A stretch of DNA of 33,163 bases, from assembly GCA_028873845.1 (NCBI GenBank), contig JAPPNO010000002.1:1-33163 (forward strand), read 5' to 3'. The notes under the pieces are model-generated. The model was given only the letters and a program-made list of their open reading frames with translations. It made no database searches and was not told the DNA's origin. A program made the translations under genes and the position numbers. Of the stretch, positions 10,152-25,993 are shown in pieces. Source of the stretch: Gemmatimonadota bacterium (GTDB lineage: Bacteria > Gemmatimonadota > Gemmatimonadetes > Longimicrobiales > Gaopeijiaceae). Position 1 is the first letter of the stretch. The number at the start of each line of letters is the position of its first letter.

Positions 10152-10217
10152 GCCCAACGGGCGCGGCCACTTCCAGATGACCCGGGACCGCATACCTGTC
10201 AGCGATGTCGCCGCCCA

Positions 10218-10241
10218 CCCGCCGCCGCGGCAAAAGGCGGG
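10218..10241. terminator. GC stem-loop between recA and alaS
   Basis: CCCGCC (10218-10223) pairs with GGCGGG (10236-10241) around a 12-nt loop. It lies about 85 nt past the recA stop on the minus strand. There is no U-tract, so it may be only a weak or factor-dependent terminator, or an mRNA 3' end protector. Confidence 0.25.
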
Positions 10242-10288
10242 ACGCGAGCATGTCAGATTGGGACACCGGCTGGATCAGCCCCGGCACG
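10239..10288 (+). repeat. Intergenic repeat copy 1
   Basis: This stretch matches 32700-32762 on the opposite strand: both share CGGGAC(G/C)CGAGCATGTC, then TGGGACAC, then CCGGCTG and TCAG. Read from the ATG in GCATGTC, both encode M-S-x-W-D-T-x3-S-P-G. This copy lies between recA and alaS, antisense to both. It also holds a small hairpin GGCTG-GAT-CAGCC. Confidence 0.5.
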
Positions 10289-10326
10289 GAAAGACCCGCG
10301 GCATGGCCGGCTGGGTCGCCTATACC

Positions 10327-11421
<1,095 letters not shown>

Positions 11422-11468
11422 CGATGGAACCTCTTCCTCGCGGCGGGGGGTTGTCTGTGCTAATACCG

Positions 11469-18760: not shown

Positions 18761-18970
18761 CTACCCCCCGTCCGGGCTCGCGGAATCTCCCAGCCGCTTG
18801 AGTTGCCGCGCGATCATCCAGACCCAGACCAGGATCAGGAGCCAAACGGCCGCGTAGGCCAGGAGGACGTGGACATAGGGGCGCAGCGCACCCCGGCCGG
18901 CCTCCTGGGCGAGGAGCGAGGCGGGCGTGGTGAGCAATAGCAGACCGATGGCGAGGCTTCGAGAGATCAT
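18761..18970 (-). CDS. ccmD: CcmD-like small membrane protein
   Basis: A 69-residue protein with two hydrophobic segments. The second (PYVHVLLAYAAVWLLILVWV, then a basic RQLKRL) has the CcmD layout: a short periplasmic lead with Tyr, one span, basic cytoplasmic tail. CcmD helps CcmABC release holo-CcmE. The first segment (AIGLLLLTTPASLLAQ) looks like a cleavable signal peptide, which classical CcmD lacks. The ATG overlaps the ccmC stop as ATGA. The assignment rests on position and topology because the family is short and poorly conserved. Confidence 0.68.
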   Translation of the reverse strand: MISRSLAIGLLLLTTPASLLAQEAGRGALRPYVHVLLAYAAVWLLILVWVWMIARQLKRLGDSASPDGG

Positions 18971-19668
18971 GTGAGTGCTTCGTCCGTTTCGCCGGATACG
19001 ACCGCCGGCCGGCGTCTGCGCAGCCGTTCGACCGCATAGCGGAAGGTGAAGAGACCGAGGAACAACAGGGTGAAGCCGGCCAGCGACGTCAGCAGCGTGG
19101 CCAGCATGTCGGAGGGCAGCGTGGGACCATCGGGCTTCAGGACGGTGGGTTCCGGGTGGATTGAACGGAACCATTCCACGCTGACATGGATGAGGGGGAT
19201 GTTGAGCGAGCCGACCACGGCCACGACCGCGGCGAAACGCTTTCCGCGCCTGGGATCCACCACCGAGCCGCGGACCAGGAAGTAGCCCAGGTAGGTGAAC
19301 CAGAGGATGAGCGTGAGTGTCAGGCGGGGATCCCACTGCCAGTAGGTGTTCCACGCGACCCGTGCCCACAGCGGACCCGTGATGAGCATGATCGCGCCGA
19401 AGACAAGGGCGCCTTCGGCCGCGGCGACGGCCGCCGCGTCCGCGCGCTCGTCCTCGAGCCACAGGTAGACCGCGCTCGCGACCGCCACGATGCCGACGGC
19501 GAGGAAGGTGGTCCATGCCGCGGGCACATGTATGTAGAAGATTCTCTGGACTACGCCCTGCGAGGCCTCGTTGGGCACCCAGAAAGCCACCATCCAGTGT
19601 ACGAGCAGGATCGTGGCCACTCCGGTCGTCACGAGAGCGAGTCCCGTGATCCTGCCTCTGGTCGACAT
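18967..19668 (-). CDS. ccmC: Haem-handling protein CcmC
   Basis: Six-span inner-membrane protein, 233 residues, that loads haem onto CcmE. The tryptophan-rich WWD region appears as WNTYWQWDPRLTLTLILWFTYLGY, and conserved periplasmic-loop histidines occur before it (FYIHVPAAW) and after it (PLIHVSVEWFRSIHP). Length and topology match CcmC rather than the longer CcsA. It starts 22 nt after ccmB and ends in an ATGA overlap with the ccmD-like gene. Confidence 0.95.
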   Translation of the reverse strand: MSTRGRITGLALVTTGVATILLVHWMVAFWVPNEASQGVVQRIFYIHVPAAWTTFLAVGIVAVASAVYLWLEDERADAAAVAAAEGALVFGAIMLITGPLWARVAWNTYWQWDPRLTLTLILWFTYLGYFLVRGSVVDPRRGKRFAAVVAVVGSLNIPLIHVSVEWFRSIHPEPTVLKPDGPTLPSDMLATLLTSLAGFTLLFLGLFTFRYAVERLRRRRPAVVSGETDEALT

Positions 19669-19690: not shown

Positions 19691-20368
19691 CTATTCGTCG
19701 CTTACATGGCGGAAAAGGGCGGCACCGATGAAGACCGACCCCACCGCGAAGGCCCATAGCAGGCGCACCGAACCCGAAATCTCGGGCCAGGGGCGCTCCA
19801 GGAAAACCCGTGCCGTCGACGTCGCCCCGAAAAAAATGACGGGGACGAGGAGCGGGAAGGTCAGCACGGGGAGCAATGTGTCACCGAGCGAGCTGTGCCG
19901 CGACATCCGCCCGAAGAAGGTGCCCGTGGCCGCCAAGCCGATCGTGCCGGGCAGGAGGACGGCCGCGTGGGCGGCCGGCGAGCCCTGGTCGCGCACGTCG
20001 AGGAAGGCGGTGAGCGAGAGGAAGGTGAGGGCGGTGACGAGCCAGATGACGGCCAGGTTCGCGGCCGTCTTGCCCAAAAAGATTGCGGGGCGGGAGACGG
20101 GGGTGAGAAGGAGATGACGGAAGGCGCCCTCCTCCTCCTCCGGGTCGAAGATGCGGCCCGCGCCGGCGGTCGAGGCGAAGAGGATGACGAGCCAGGTGAG
20201 AGCCGCGGCCACGTCACGGCCCGCGACGGCGGTCTGGTCCAGGGCGAAGGCGAAGAGGAAGCCGGCGAGGACCACAAAGGCGATCATGGAGAGGAGGCGG
20301 CCGCCGGTGCGGAACTCGAGGCGCAGGTCCTTGAGGGTGATCAGCCAGGCGCGGCGGAGCTCGTTCAC
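19691..20368 (-). CDS. ccmB: CcmB, membrane subunit of the haem ABC transporter
   Basis: A 225-residue, six-span permease subunit that works with CcmA and CcmC to release haem-loaded CcmE. Family features: LKDLRLEFRTGGRL at the N-terminus, the DPEEEEGAFRHLLLTPVSR loop that contacts CcmA, and the PLLVPVIFFGA span. The GTG start (20366-20368) overlaps the ccmA stop as GTGA. Confidence 0.94.
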   Translation of the reverse strand: MNELRRAWLITLKDLRLEFRTGGRLLSMIAFVVLAGFLFAFALDQTAVAGRDVAAALTWLVILFASTAGAGRIFDPEEEEGAFRHLLLTPVSRPAIFLGKTAANLAVIWLVTALTFLSLTAFLDVRDQGSPAAHAAVLLPGTIGLAATGTFFGRMSRHSSLGDTLLPVLTFPLLVPVIFFGATSTARVFLERPWPEISGSVRLLWAFAVGSVFIGAALFRHVSDE

Positions 20369-21072
20369 GACGGGTCTGCCGGGGTGGGCGAGAAGAACCG
20401 GAGGAGGTCGACGGCGTCGGCCGCGCCGGTCTCGCCGTCGTGGACCTTGTGGCCGCGCTGAAGCACGACCACGCGGTCGGCGAGGCCCTGGCAGCGGCGC
20501 AGGTCGTGGGTGACCAGGACGATGATGCTGCCCGCCGCGCGGCGCGCTCGCAGGGTGGACTCGAGGGCGGCCGCGGCTGACGGGTCCAGTCCGGTGAAGG
20601 GTTCGTCGAGGAAGAGGATGTCGGGGTCGTGGAGCAGCGTTCGGGCGAGGGCCACGCGCTGGGACTGTCCCCGTGAAAGGGCTTCTACGCGGGTGTCGGC
20701 CAAGGCGGCCGCGCCGATGGTGTCGAGGGCCCGGGCCACGGCGCTGCGGGGCTCGGGGACCGCGTGCACCGACGCGAAGAAGGTCAGGTTCTCGGCGACG
20801 GTGAGCTTCCGGTAGAGCCCCGTCCGGTGCGATACCAGCCCCACCCTTCCCCGCCACCCCGGATCCGCGCCCGAGACCGGCGATCCGTCCAGGAGCACTT
20901 CGCCCCGATCGGGTCGTCTCTCTCCACTCAGCGCGCGCAGCAACGTGGTCTTCCCGGCGCCGTTCGGCCCCACTACGGCCACGATCTCCCCACCACCGGC
21001 TACAAGGTCCACCCCGTCAAGGGCCCGCGTGGGTCCGTAGGTGCAGACCAGCCGTTGTCCTTCCAGCGTCAA
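20365..21072 (-). CDS. ccmA: CcmA, ATP-binding subunit of the haem ABC transporter
   Basis: A 235-residue ABC ATPase. Walker A GPNGAGKTT (~35-43), Q-loop region VGLVSHRTGLY, signature LSRGQSQRVALA, Walker B ILFLDEP, H-loop VTHD. CcmA drives holo-CcmE release. Start is a TTG (21070-21072) with GAGGGGG 5 nt upstream; no ATG or GTG precedes the conserved core in frame. A 132-nt gap with a hairpin separates it from the CcmI-like gene, so it could be regulated separately from ccmE-ccmF. Confidence 0.93.
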   Translation of the reverse strand: MTLEGQRLVCTYGPTRALDGVDLVAGGGEIVAVVGPNGAGKTTLLRALSGERRPDRGEVLLDGSPVSGADPGWRGRVGLVSHRTGLYRKLTVAENLTFFASVHAVPEPRSAVARALDTIGAAALADTRVEALSRGQSQRVALARTLLHDPDILFLDEPFTGLDPSAAAALESTLRARRAAGSIIVLVTHDLRRCQGLADRVVVLQRGHKVHDGETGAADAVDLLRFFSPTPADPS

Positions 21073-21204: not shown

Positions 21205-21636
21205 CTACTCTCCACCCCCCAACCCCTCCCCACACCGCGCACAGAACCGCGCCCCCAACCGATTAAGGTATTCGCACCCCGAACACTGCATCCCCTCCCG
21301 AATCGCCCTGCGCAACTCCGCGATCTCCTCCTCCAGCTCCCTCGACGCCCGGTCCGGTCCACGCCCACCGCCCTCCCCCTGGTCCCCCAGATGCTCCAAC
21401 GCCTCCCGCGACAGCTCCGTCCTCAGCTGCCCGTAGTCGTTCTCATCCAGCTTCCCGGTCGCGCGGTCGTACTCCAGATCGCGCAGCGCCGTCAGCGCCA
21501 CCCGGCGCCGCGCCGCCCCCTCGTCGAACACGTCGTCCCCGTCGTACATCGGCGCGCTCTTCCCCGAGAACACCGGCTCCAGCACGAACAGCAACACTCC
21601 CGCCCCCAGCAGCACCCCGCCGATCAGCACGCTCAT
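21205..21636 (-). CDS. CcmI-like N-terminal module with C-terminal zinc ribbon
   Basis: A 143-residue protein. The N-terminus is a single span (VLIGGVLLGAGVLLFVLEPVF). Then VALTALRDLEYDRATGKLDENDYGQLRTEL matches the start of CcmI/CycH, the apocytochrome-handling factor, where REIEFDYATGKL-type segments occur. Instead of TPR repeats it has a charged helix and a zinc ribbon CSGC-x11-CARC. It lies between ccmF and ccmA, supporting a role in cytochrome c maturation. Its ATG has no SD and overlaps, as ATGA, the end of a 9-codon frame that itself overlaps the ccmF stop. Confidence 0.78.
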   Translation of the reverse strand: MSVLIGGVLLGAGVLLFVLEPVFSGKSAPMYDGDDVFDEGAARRRVALTALRDLEYDRATGKLDENDYGQLRTELSREALEHLGDQGEGGGRGPDRASRELEEEIAELRRAIREGMQCSGCEYLNRLGARFCARCGEGLGGGE

Positions 21637-21658: not shown

Positions 21659-23707
21659 TCACCCCGCCGCCCCCGCCGGAACCGGCTTGCGCACCGCCCT
21701 CTCCCTTTCCCGCGCCGCCGACGGCACGGGCACCCCCCGCGGCGGCCACAGCCCCACGAGCGTCCCGATCGCCACGATCAGGCCCCCGGTCCAGATCCAC
21801 GGGACCAGCGGCAGCACTTTCACCTCGAAGGTCGCGCGGTCGGTGCCGGTCTCCAGGTCCTTGGGGATGACGTACAGGTCCTCCAGCACGGAGCTCGAGA
21901 TCCCCACCTCGGTGGACGTCTGTTCCATGACCGGGTAGAACCGCTTCTCCGGCCGCAGGACGCCGATCCGCTCGCCGTCGCGGTACGCCGTCAGGAGCGC
22001 CGTCCAGCGCCAGTCGTTCTCCTGCACGTCCTCGGCCGCCCGGGGGCGCGTGTGCGACAGGCTCTCGTAGACCAGGCGGTACTCGCTCCCCAGCGCCGAG
22101 CGCACGGTCATCGCTTCGCCCGGCACCATCTCCTGCTCGACGCGCGCGTCGAAGGCCGCCCCCGCCAGCCCCGTGAATACCAGCGCGACCCCCGCGTGCA
22201 CGATGTACCCGCCCCACCGCCGCCGGTTGCGCTTCACGAGACTGCGAAACGCGCTCACGACCCCCTCGCCGGCGATCCGCGCCCGCGCCTTCGTCCCCTT
22301 CCAGAACTCCGTCACCACGATCGTCATCACGAATGCGGCGAGCGCAAAGGTGGCCAGCGCCATGCCGTGGCGGACGCCCGTGGCCAGCAGAACCGCCAGC
22401 GTCACCACCCCCATCGCCACCGGAAGGGTGAAGTTCTTGCGCAGGTTCCGCTTCGACGCGCGCCGCCACGCGATCACCGGCCCGATCCCCATCAGCGCCA
22501 GCAGCATCAGCCCCAGCGGGATGTTGACGCGGTTGAAGTACGGCGGCCCCACGTTGCGCGTCTCGCCGAAGAAGCCCTCGGTGATGAGCGGGAAGAGCGT
22601 CCCCCAGATGACCGCGAAGGTGACGCCGATGAAGAGCAGGTTGTTGAAGAGGAAGGCCGACTCGCGCGACAGGAACGACTGGATCCGGTTCTCGGGCCTG
22701 AGCGACGGCAGCCGGTGGATGATCAGGATCGCGGCGAAGATCGCCATCCCGCCCATGAAGCCCAGGAAGATGTACGCAATGGTCAGGTTCTCGGCGAAGC
22801 TGTGCACCGACTCGATCAGCCCCGAGCGGGTCAGGAAGGTGGCGAAGATGGTGAGCAGGAAGGTGAGGACCACCAGCACCATGTTCCACACCTTGAGCAT
22901 CCCCCGGTTCTCCTGGATCTGGATCGAGTGGAGGAAGGCGGTGGCGGTCAGCCAGGGGAGCAGCGACGCGTTCTCGACGGGGTCCCAGAACCAGTAGCCG
23001 CCCCACCCCAGCTCCTCGTACGCCCACCGCATGCCGAAGATGATCCCGAGGGTGAGGAAGAACCAGCTGAGCAGGATCCACCGCCGGGTGACCGCGATCC
23101 AGCGCGAGTCCAGGCGGCCGGTGAGGAGCGCGGCGACCGCGAAGGCGAAGGGGACGGCGAAGGCCGTGAACCCCAGGTAGAGCGTGGGGGGATGGATCGT
23201 CATCCAGTAGTTCTGCAGCTGGGGATTGAGGCCCAGGCCGTTGAAGCGCGTGAACCCCAGCCGCTCGAAGGGGTTGACCTCGGCGAAGAGGAGGACGATG
23301 AGGAGGAAGGAGAGGATGCCGAGAAGCGTGCCGCTCACATACGGCATGAACTCCCGGTTGCGCCGCCGGTTCAGGAAGACCGCGAGCGACGAGAAGACCG
23401 AGAGGAGGAGCGTCCAGAAGACCAGCGACCCGCGCTGTCCGGCCCAGAGTCCCGCAACCTTGAAGTAGGTGTCGAGTTCGCGGTTCGAGTAGTTGACGAC
23501 GTAGTAGTACTCGTACCGGTCGCCAAGGAAGGCCGCGATGATCCCCGCCGAGACGAGGACCAGCAGAATGGTGACGACGTGGACGGTGCGTTCGCCGCTC
23601 AGCACCAGGTCGCCGCGGCCGATCCTGCCCCCGGCGAACGAGACGGCGGTTCCCCAAAGGGCGACGGGGAGGGCGATCCAGAGGGCGATCTCGCCCAGGA
23701 TCGTCAC
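21659..23707 (-). CDS. ccmF: Cytochrome c haem lyase subunit CcmF
   Basis: A large polytopic membrane protein of 682 residues that takes haem from CcmE and joins it to apocytochrome c. The WWD domain is WGGYWFWDPVENASLLPWL; nearby histidines lie in MTIHPPTLYLGF and TAFLHSIQ; ~15 spans and a late periplasmic domain (VESLSHTRP region) are as expected. The GTG start (23705-23707) lies 9 nt after the ccmE stop, with no clear SD, which suggests translational coupling. It is the longest gene of the operon. Confidence 0.96.
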   Translation of the reverse strand: MTILGEIALWIALPVALWGTAVSFAGGRIGRGDLVLSGERTVHVVTILLVLVSAGIIAAFLGDRYEYYYVVNYSNRELDTYFKVAGLWAGQRGSLVFWTLLLSVFSSLAVFLNRRRNREFMPYVSGTLLGILSFLLIVLLFAEVNPFERLGFTRFNGLGLNPQLQNYWMTIHPPTLYLGFTAFAVPFAFAVAALLTGRLDSRWIAVTRRWILLSWFFLTLGIIFGMRWAYEELGWGGYWFWDPVENASLLPWLTATAFLHSIQIQENRGMLKVWNMVLVVLTFLLTIFATFLTRSGLIESVHSFAENLTIAYIFLGFMGGMAIFAAILIIHRLPSLRPENRIQSFLSRESAFLFNNLLFIGVTFAVIWGTLFPLITEGFFGETRNVGPPYFNRVNIPLGLMLLALMGIGPVIAWRRASKRNLRKNFTLPVAMGVVTLAVLLATGVRHGMALATFALAAFVMTIVVTEFWKGTKARARIAGEGVVSAFRSLVKRNRRRWGGYIVHAGVALVFTGLAGAAFDARVEQEMVPGEAMTVRSALGSEYRLVYESLSHTRPRAAEDVQENDWRWTALLTAYRDGERIGVLRPEKRFYPVMEQTSTEVGISSSVLEDLYVIPKDLETGTDRATFEVKVLPLVPWIWTGGLIVAIGTLVGLWPPRGVPVPSAARERERAVRKPVPAGAAG

Positions 23708-23716
23708 GGGAGGGCT

Positions 23717-24145
23717 TTATCCACCGGCTGCCAGATCCTCCTTGGCGGCCTCGAAGCGGCTGCCGCACTTGGTGAGGACCGTGTGGGCGTGGAAGACGCC
23801 ATCGGGCCCGTACCTGCCTTCCACCACGACTTCGGCCTCGTCGTTGAAGGTGTCGGGCACGACGTCGTCGTAGTACACGGCGAAGGTCACCCCGGTGTCC
23901 TCCAGGTCCGCAACCACGAACTCATGCGCGCCGCTGGTGCCGTCCTCGCGCGTCCAGGACCCCTCCACCACCCGCCCGCTCACCTTCACCCCGACCTCGT
24001 GGAAGGTCGGATCGCCCTCGACCTTGGCGATCAGTTCGACCGGGGTCAGGTAGTACACCATGCTGTCGCTGATCCCGGTCCACATCAGGTAGGCCACGAC
24101 GGCGGCGACGCCGACCAGCCCGACGAAAAAGCGTCCGTTCTTCAT
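23717..24145 (-). CDS. ccmE: Haem chaperone CcmE, Cys variant
   Basis: A 142-residue periplasmic OB-fold protein held by one N-terminal span (FVGLVGVAAVVAYLMWTG). The family motifs YYLTPVEL, VKVSGRVVEGS and VEGRYGPDGVFHA are present. At the haem-attachment site E. coli CcmE has KHDENY (HxxxY); here it is KCGSRF, so Cys replaces His and Phe the Tyr. Cys-type CcmE (CxxxY) is known from Desulfovibrio and archaea, in systems that lack CcmG and CcmH ('System I*'), and neither gene is seen here. The ATG at 24143-24145 is taken as start; GGAG is 12 nt upstream. Confidence 0.93.
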   Translation of the reverse strand: MKNGRFFVGLVGVAAVVAYLMWTGISDSMVYYLTPVELIAKVEGDPTFHEVGVKVSGRVVEGSWTREDGTSGAHEFVVADLEDTGVTFAVYYDDVVPDTFNDEAEVVVEGRYGPDGVFHAHTVLTKCGSRFEAAKEDLAAGG

Positions 24146-24290: not shown

Positions 24291-24878
24291 TCACACGCAG
24301 CAGGCGTACGTTGCCTGTCCCACCTTCCAGGCGCCGTCCTCCAACTGTTCCACCACTACGGTGTACATGATCAGGTCCAAAGCTATCTGCTCCTGACCGC
24401 CACTCTCCAGCCACTCCGGGTCGAAGCTGTCCGGGATCAGCAGCTCGCCGGTGTCCCGGCGGTAGAACACATTCTGGATGGCGGTGACCGCGTTGGGAGG
24501 ATCCCGCGGCGTCCGCCAGAATTCCAGTAGTCCCTCACGTGGCAGCGCCGTCGGCGAGTATGGGCGGCAGTGGTCCGGCGGCGGGCATTCGATGAGGGTT
24601 CCGGGGAACTGCCCCTCCGCGTAGTTGGCGACGGCCTCCGCGAGGCGCGGATCGCCGATGGTGTTCCAGCTGCCGGCCACCATGGCGATCTCCGAAAGGT
24701 CGAGGGGACCGCGGGCCCGACCGGGTTGTGGGAACCCGCGGGGAGGCGGCTGGGCCGGGATCTGCGCCAAGGCCTCGACGATCTCCCGGCCGAGATCGTC
24801 CGGTTTCGCAGCCTCCATGGATCGGCCCGCGCAACCCGCGATGGCGATGGTCAGGAAGATGGCCGGTTTCGTTCTCAT
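24291..24878 (-). CDS. Lipoprotein of unknown function
   Basis: A 195-residue predicted lipoprotein: MRTKPAIFLTIAIAGC gives a basic start, hydrophobic core and lipobox IAGC. No known domain was recognised. The mature protein has a Pro-rich linker (AQPPPRGFPQPGRARGP), an ECPPPDHC pair, and a C-terminal half with strands such as LIMYTVVVEQLEDGAWKVGQ, ending CCV. ATG 24876-24878 follows a GGGAAG at short spacing. It starts 46 nt after the restored end of the propeller gene, so the two may be cotranscribed. Confidence 0.75.
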   Translation of the reverse strand: MRTKPAIFLTIAIAGCAGRSMEAAKPDDLGREIVEALAQIPAQPPPRGFPQPGRARGPLDLSEIAMVAGSWNTIGDPRLAEAVANYAEGQFPGTLIECPPPDHCRPYSPTALPREGLLEFWRTPRDPPNAVTAIQNVFYRRDTGELLIPDSFDPEWLESGGQEQIALDLIMYTVVVEQLEDGAWKVGQATYACCV

Positions 24879-24924
24879 CTTCTTCCCAAGAGTGGCCGCG
24901 GGAGTTCTACCGGTCTCACCCGAG

Positions 24925-25993
24925 TCAGCGCCGAGACAGCTGCGGCTCGATGATGTGGAGGTACGGCACTCCGGCTTCCGTTTCCTCATGATCGACCAGA
25001 TAGCTGGAGCCCGCCACGAAGTGTCCGAGTGCGTTGTCCTGGTGGTATCGGGCGAGTGTCTGCCCTGTGGCGGGATCCACAAGATCCAGCCAACCGTCAC
25101 GCAATTGGTCGATTTGGCGTTGGCACCCTGCTGTCGAGGGAAGGCGGTGGTCCCGTCCAATCCGGGTCGGCTGTGTGCCAACTAAGCCAGAGTCCCCGGT
25201 CGTCCAACATGGCCGAACCTAATCTGGCGGGTGCAAATGCGTCCCCACCTTCGTCGAACTCCGCAACACGACGATCGAAAATCCTGCCCACGTTCGGCTC
25301 CGGCGCCAGGTCCCAGCGAACGAGTCGGTTGACCTCGAGCGGCACTGCCCACACGGTGTTGTCCTCCCCGGCCACGGCCGTTCTCGTTGTTGCCCAAGGC
25401 GTCAGATCGGATGAATACACCTCACCATCGTGGCCATACGAGGCCATTTCCCCCGAGGGCCGGAGTATGTGGAGCTGGTGACCTACGGACGCGGGGGTCG
25501 GGACATCGGCCACGAACACCACCACGTCATCGCTCACGACGGCGGCGGACAGGATCTGTCCCGGAAACCGGTCGATGCGGACCACCTGGAAGTCGTGGTC
25601 GAGCATCGTCCGACCCTCGTGATACTCGAATACGTGGATGTACCGGGGGCCCACGCCAATGTGCGAGATGGATCTGTACTCCCCGGGGCCCTCTCCCCGT
25701 CTCCCAGCGGTCCGCAGGTATCTGCCGGTCGAATCGAATACCGAGATTTCCGCCTCCCCACCCTCCCAGACCAGGATGCGCCCCTTGCGGTCCACGGCAA
25801 CACTCGAAAACATCGATACGACATTCAGACCAGGTCCGTCGAGTCCGCCAATGGTGACCACGGTGTCGAGCGTGATGACGCATTCGGCGCAAGTCACCTC
25901 GCCGGGCACCTGCTCCGGTTCCTGCGCGCCAATGCGCATCGCGGTGGCGTGATCCACAACGAGGGCGAGGAGAAGGAGACAGACGGTTCGCAT
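24925..25993 (-). pseudogene. 6-bladed beta-propeller secreted protein, frameshifted
   Basis: The first frame (25993 to a stop at 25097) gives a signal peptide, CAEC near the N-terminus, and propeller blades with VAVDRKGRILVWE, FDSTGRYLRTAGRRGEGPGEYRSI and later strands. It ends abruptly in a Pro-rich, unlike-family tail. The next frame carries the missing end (LRDGWLDLVDPATGQTLARY through VPYLHIIEPQL, stop 24925-24927). Removing one C from CCC at 25152-25154 joins both smoothly; another site before 25097 is possible. This is either a real inactivation or a sequence error. It starts 6 nt after the upstream secreted gene. These propellers are common in Gemmatimonadota; ligand unknown. Confidence 0.72.

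Follow-up and report, generated by a model that had tools for sequence, protein, structure and literature searches.

Canonical System I cytochrome c maturation, as in E. coli, combines a His-type CcmE, a CcmH with an LRCxxC motif, and CcmG. A variant named System I* was reportedly described by Allen in 2006, in the definition that a sequence-only reading of the present DNA followed, and Goddard is said to have added a further study in 2010. As reviewed by Stevens in 2011, Cys-type CcmE occurs in Desulfovibrio, archaea, Chloroflexi and Firmicutes; CcmH is found in about one third of the bacteria with Cys-type CcmE, and its absence is not characteristic of them (PMC3601427). Phe in place of the attachment-motif Tyr was recorded in four Cys-type examples in that survey, and E. 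coli CcmE can do without the Tyr (PMC3601427). The cysteine is required for haem binding by archaeal CcmE (PMC9084895), and covalent holo-CcmE has been obtained with the Cys-type proteins of D. desulfuricans (PMC3601427) and M. acetivorans (PMC9084895); D. vulgaris CcmE was reported to bind ferric haem non-covalently through its Cys127 (PMC3884852). The Desulfovibrio (PMC3601427) and archaeal (PMC9084895) systems work without CcmH, and in canonical CcmH the exposed, attacking cysteine is the second of the CxxC pair (PMC3884852).

The window analysed here is a stretch of 33,163 nucleotides from a marine Gemmatimonadota bacterium; its nearest named relatives are MAGs that carry the label Gemmatimonadota or Longimicrobiales. 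A compact operon, with intergenic gaps of -7 to 132 bases, runs along its minus strand from 24145 to 18761 in the order ccmE, ccmF, a CcmI-like zinc-ribbon gene, ccmA, ccmB, ccmC and a CcmD-like gene, and Pfam and TIGR profiles matched the whole System I core set of CcmA, CcmB, CcmC, CcmE and CcmF. The haem lyase gene ccmF (21659..23707, minus strand; PF16327 187.1 bits, PF01578 132.7 bits) is present once in the genome; its product retains the WWD motif WGGYWFWDPVEN and carries His 172, 260, 302 and 504, a placement that matches what we take to be that of E. coli CcmF. Downstream lie, all on the minus strand, the ABC ATPase gene ccmA (20365..21072; TIGR01189 152.7 bits against a cut-off of 131.6), the ABC permease gene ccmB (19691..20371; PF03379 96 bits) and ccmC, for haem delivery to CcmE (18967..19668; PF01578 90.5 bits). 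CcmC scores 147.9 bits with TIGR01191, under the cut-off of 186, and keeps both His 47 and His 171, presumably the two conserved histidines of the E. coli protein. The CcmD-like gene (18761..18970, minus strand) encodes a small membrane protein of 69 amino acids that falls slightly under the cut-off of TIGR04391 CcmD_alt_fam (22.8 bits against 24). These matches, the CcmD-like one just short of its cut-off, agree with the sequence-only reading that the operon keeps CcmA, B, C and F and a CcmD-like protein, and neither ccmG nor ccmH, which it had also reported missing, was found within the window's ccm operon. An NrfEFG-type duplicate was ruled out by the single CcmF and by an NrfF model score far under its cut-off. 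Likely clients exist, since nine Cytochrome_CBB3 matches above cut-off show that the genome encodes c-type cytochromes. Elsewhere in the window, two long open reading frames (10177-11463, plus strand; 24291-25181, minus strand) have no Pfam match and sit among alaS, lipoamide-dehydrogenase-like, hflX-like and glycerol-kinase-like housekeeping genes.

The operon's first gene, ccmE (23717..24145, minus strand), encodes a haem chaperone of 142 amino acids in an intact, full-length reading frame with an N-terminal transmembrane helix and an OB-fold (PF03100, E 3.9e-22, 78.9 bits, cut-off 24.6). Its AlphaFold2 model has a pLDDT of 80.5, the best PDB matches of this model by Foldseek include the CcmE structures 8ce8_E, 1lm0, 1sr3 and 2kct, and 2kct (D. 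vulgaris CcmE) is also the top PDB match by sequence. The haem-attachment motif reads KCGSRF, within LTKCGSRFEA (23753..23770, minus strand), and confirms both replacements proposed from the letters: Cys127 (23765-23767), invariant in 30 aligned homologues from separate assemblies, stands for the haem-binding His, and Phe131 (23753-23755) for the Tyr, so that the usual CxxxY is CxxxF here and CxxxY in most relatives. A base-calling error at the Cys codon, or a decaying ccmE, has a negligible probability, because all close relatives, many of them independently assembled, share the Cys and the frame is intact. In a single relative (L221, genome G109) the motif reads KXGSRY, since one base of the Cys codon is ambiguous in that assembly.

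Alignment of CcmE homologues across the phylum, which the sequence-only reading had proposed, placed this protein among the majority. Typed from alignment columns, and with some genomes entered twice under a handle and a named record, the sample held 150 rows with Cys and Tyr, 14 with Cys and Phe, 49 with His and Tyr, and one ambiguous at the Cys; Cys is thus the majority CcmE type in this phylum sample, and it is nearly universal in the window genome's own family (f1). The CcmE tree shows at least four changes between Tyr and Phe at this position, and Phe131, judged from this distribution, is a scattered and presumably tolerated substitution. That the Cys-type protein lies outside its best-known hosts also held up, as the phylum is unnamed in the 2011 list of delta-proteobacteria, chloroflexi and firmicutes (PMC3601427). 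The common Cys-type motif is CPSKY; the window differs from it in reading CGSRF.

Other parts of a maturation pathway were sought in the whole genome. No protein exceeded the TIGR00385 cut-off for CcmG (best 65.5 bits against 123.15), among 15 thioredoxin-like proteins present. Three DsbD/CcdA-type proteins are encoded, and on contig C87 a CcdA gene and a ResA/TlpA-like gene lie close together. On contig C133 (G000 C133:43909-64446) one strand carries eight thioredoxin-like matches in a stretch of about 20 kb that also includes a DsbD_TM gene. A search for System II (ccsBA), which had been suggested as a check, returned no ResB/CcsB in any of the 21 genomes of the genus.

The claim that did not survive is that of a System I* variant without CcmH. 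One CcmH homologue is encoded on a contig other than that of the ccm operon (G000 C81:105759-106121, minus strand; PF03918 54.5 bits against a cut-off of 25), beside genes that by eye, from their translations, are M24-peptidase-like and histone-deacetylase-like. The match covers most of the profile and the membrane region is present; in a PDB search by sequence, the sole match to this protein was a weak one, CcmH 2hl7 (E 0.77). Of the pairing that the sequence-only reading had set against itself, ccmG or ccmH elsewhere together with a second, His-type CcmE, only the first half was found, as ccmH; the genome has one CcmE and no His-type copy. A ccmH missing from the operon is therefore not a ccmH missing from the genome. 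Across the phylum, CcmH was matched in 234 of 249 genomes and CcmE in 238; in six of six genomes of family f10, from another class, neither was matched. In families f3, f4, f5 and f6 a CcmH gene immediately follows ccmF in the operon; in f1, every CcmH gene but one that accompanies a Cys-type CcmE is unlinked to it.

The CcmH protein of the window genome departs from the family at its active site. In the alignment, the canonical motif region reads LRCPVCQGLSIQDSPSELA and its counterpart in the window genome LRSPFCKGFMLEVCTSSDAEELR: here Ser replaces the first Cys of the CxxC and the second is retained, giving LRSPFC instead of the LRCxxC redox motif, and an extra Cys occupies the Ser position of DSP. 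Given that the second Cys is the attacking one in canonical CcmH (PMC3884852), the likely nucleophile is retained. A third form, LRCTCGCNLDVYTCRTTDFTC, is found in f4-f6 and in part of f1. Counted as distinct rows, CcmH proteins accompanied by a Cys-type CcmE have, in 74 of 76 rows (40/42 operon-linked, 34/34 unlinked), a Cys at the DSP position, together with a CxCxC or SPxC motif, and those accompanied by a His-type CcmE have LRCxxC followed by the Ser of DSP in 22 of 22 (18/18 linked, 4/4 unlinked). Three f3 proteins (L177:2838-3323, L178:3799-4308 and L179:4255-4761) have lost both Cys of the CxxC (LKSPFG, LRSPVT), leaving the DSP-position Cys as their only one.

These data would accommodate a coupling of CcmE and CcmH chemistry, in which a CcmH that serves Cys-type CcmE drops the two thiols of its CxxC and depends instead on the DSP-position Cys, perhaps for keeping the CcmE Cys reduced or for helping to break the Cys-haem bond; we regard this as improbable. 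For linked operons the association gives a Fisher test value of 7e-14 with rows that are related by descent, and the His/Cys switch occurred once on the CcmE tree, so the pattern amounts to one deep contrast and is no proof of coupling. Both exceptions come from f8 (L271, L272), where a Cys-type CcmE (KCPSKY) accompanies a canonical-type CxxC CcmH (LKCPVC) encoded just upstream of ccmE. Their CcmE groups with an acidobacterial Cys-type CcmE, outside the main Cys group, and so represents another lineage, possibly acquired laterally; these loci indicate that Cys-type CcmE does not require a DSP-position Cys in CcmH. Four genomes carry two Ccm loci each, one with either type of CcmE: L106/L107 (G010), L279/L280 (G263), L281/L282 (G288) and L200/L283 (G283). 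G010 and G263 showed both types of CcmH, each adjoining the matching CcmE type; in G283 and G288 only the canonical CcmH was read, beside the His-type CcmE, though another, unlinked gene also matched the CcmH of the window genome.

Whether the distant CcmH belongs to the pathway bears on a reading closer to the original one, a true System I* in which CcmABCDEF(I) suffices for maturation and the CcmH-like protein is uninvolved. The protein may indeed act outside the ccm pathway, because its gene stands apart from the operon and its CxxC is missing the first Cys, and its counterparts in f1 likewise lie outside the operon with a broken CxxC; the CcmH-free systems of Desulfovibrio and archaea moreover function (PMC3601427; PMC9084895). 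Against this, CcmH is retained in nearly all relatives, follows ccmF within the operons of f3-f6, and keeps a conserved Cys and its membrane region, and we consider such a system unlikely here. Equally doubtful is that Cys127 serves as a thiolate ligand of the haem iron, with no thioether, so that non-covalently bound haem is handed over: the D. vulgaris protein, whose structure is the best PDB sequence match, was reported to bind ferric haem in this manner (PMC3884852), but covalent holo-CcmE was formed by the Cys-type proteins of D. desulfuricans and M. acetivorans (PMC3601427; PMC9084895). We infer covalent haem binding at Cys127.

The zinc-ribbon protein that the sequence-only reading had listed as an addition to the operon does carry a ribbon; it is not extra, for its N-terminal part matches CcmI. 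Encoded at 21205..21636 (minus strand), it has 143 amino acids and barely passes the curated cut-off of TIGR03142 (29.9 bits against 29.3) over residues 8-91. With CcmI it shares a membrane helix and a helical region at the N-terminus (LRDLEYDRATGKLDENDY); unlike CcmI, this short protein ends in a C2-C2 zinc ribbon and has no Pfam match and no periplasmic TPR domain. The ribbon's Cys pairs, Cys118/121 and Cys132/135 (21232..21285, minus strand), are invariant in 22 homologues, and among the regions retrieved, the operons with Cys-type CcmE in f1 and f3-f6 contain the protein, with one ambiguous case in f4. A low-confidence model contains one apparent membrane helix (6-23), for which reason the ribbon may lie on the cytoplasmic side.

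Compared with System I*, then, the window shares the Cys for the CcmE His, CcmABCDEF and a CcmI-like protein, and differs in having a CcmH homologue in its genome, in its CcmE motif and in a zinc ribbon in place of TPR repeats. With canonical System I it shares CcmABCDEF, the WWD motif and the CcmF and CcmC His ligands, and differs in the CcmE Cys, in an unlinked CcmH with SPxC and an added Cys, and in having no clear CcmG. We are confident, from sequence comparison, in predicting a functional System I operon of the Cys-type CcmE kind. CcmA, CcmB, CcmC and CcmD would move or release haem, loading it at the periplasmic face onto CcmE Cys127, and the WWD domain of CcmF would pass it from CcmE to the CXXCH motifs of apocytochromes. 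The CcmI-like protein would aid lyase assembly, the CcmH with its rearranged active site would partner CcmF as a scaffold or via its remaining Cys, and the CcdA/TlpA-like pair is a possible source of reductant.

The window adds another example to a known class of Ccm systems, as the co-occurrence of Cys-type CcmE with CcmH and the replacement of Tyr by Phe were both reported in 2011 (PMC3601427). No paper on Ccm in Gemmatimonadota, or on these CcmH variants, was found in the open-access literature, and by that search the rearranged CcmH and the CcmI-zinc-ribbon protein are apparently new. The 2011 review named two questions to which they relate: how haem is released from a Cys-type CcmE, given the expected stability of a thioether, and what role CcmH has in such systems (PMC3601427). 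One phylum with both CcmE types, some genomes with both, and a CcmH site that changed alongside provides a natural comparison; if the coupling were true, Gemmatimonadota would show intermediate states toward a CcmH-free System I*.
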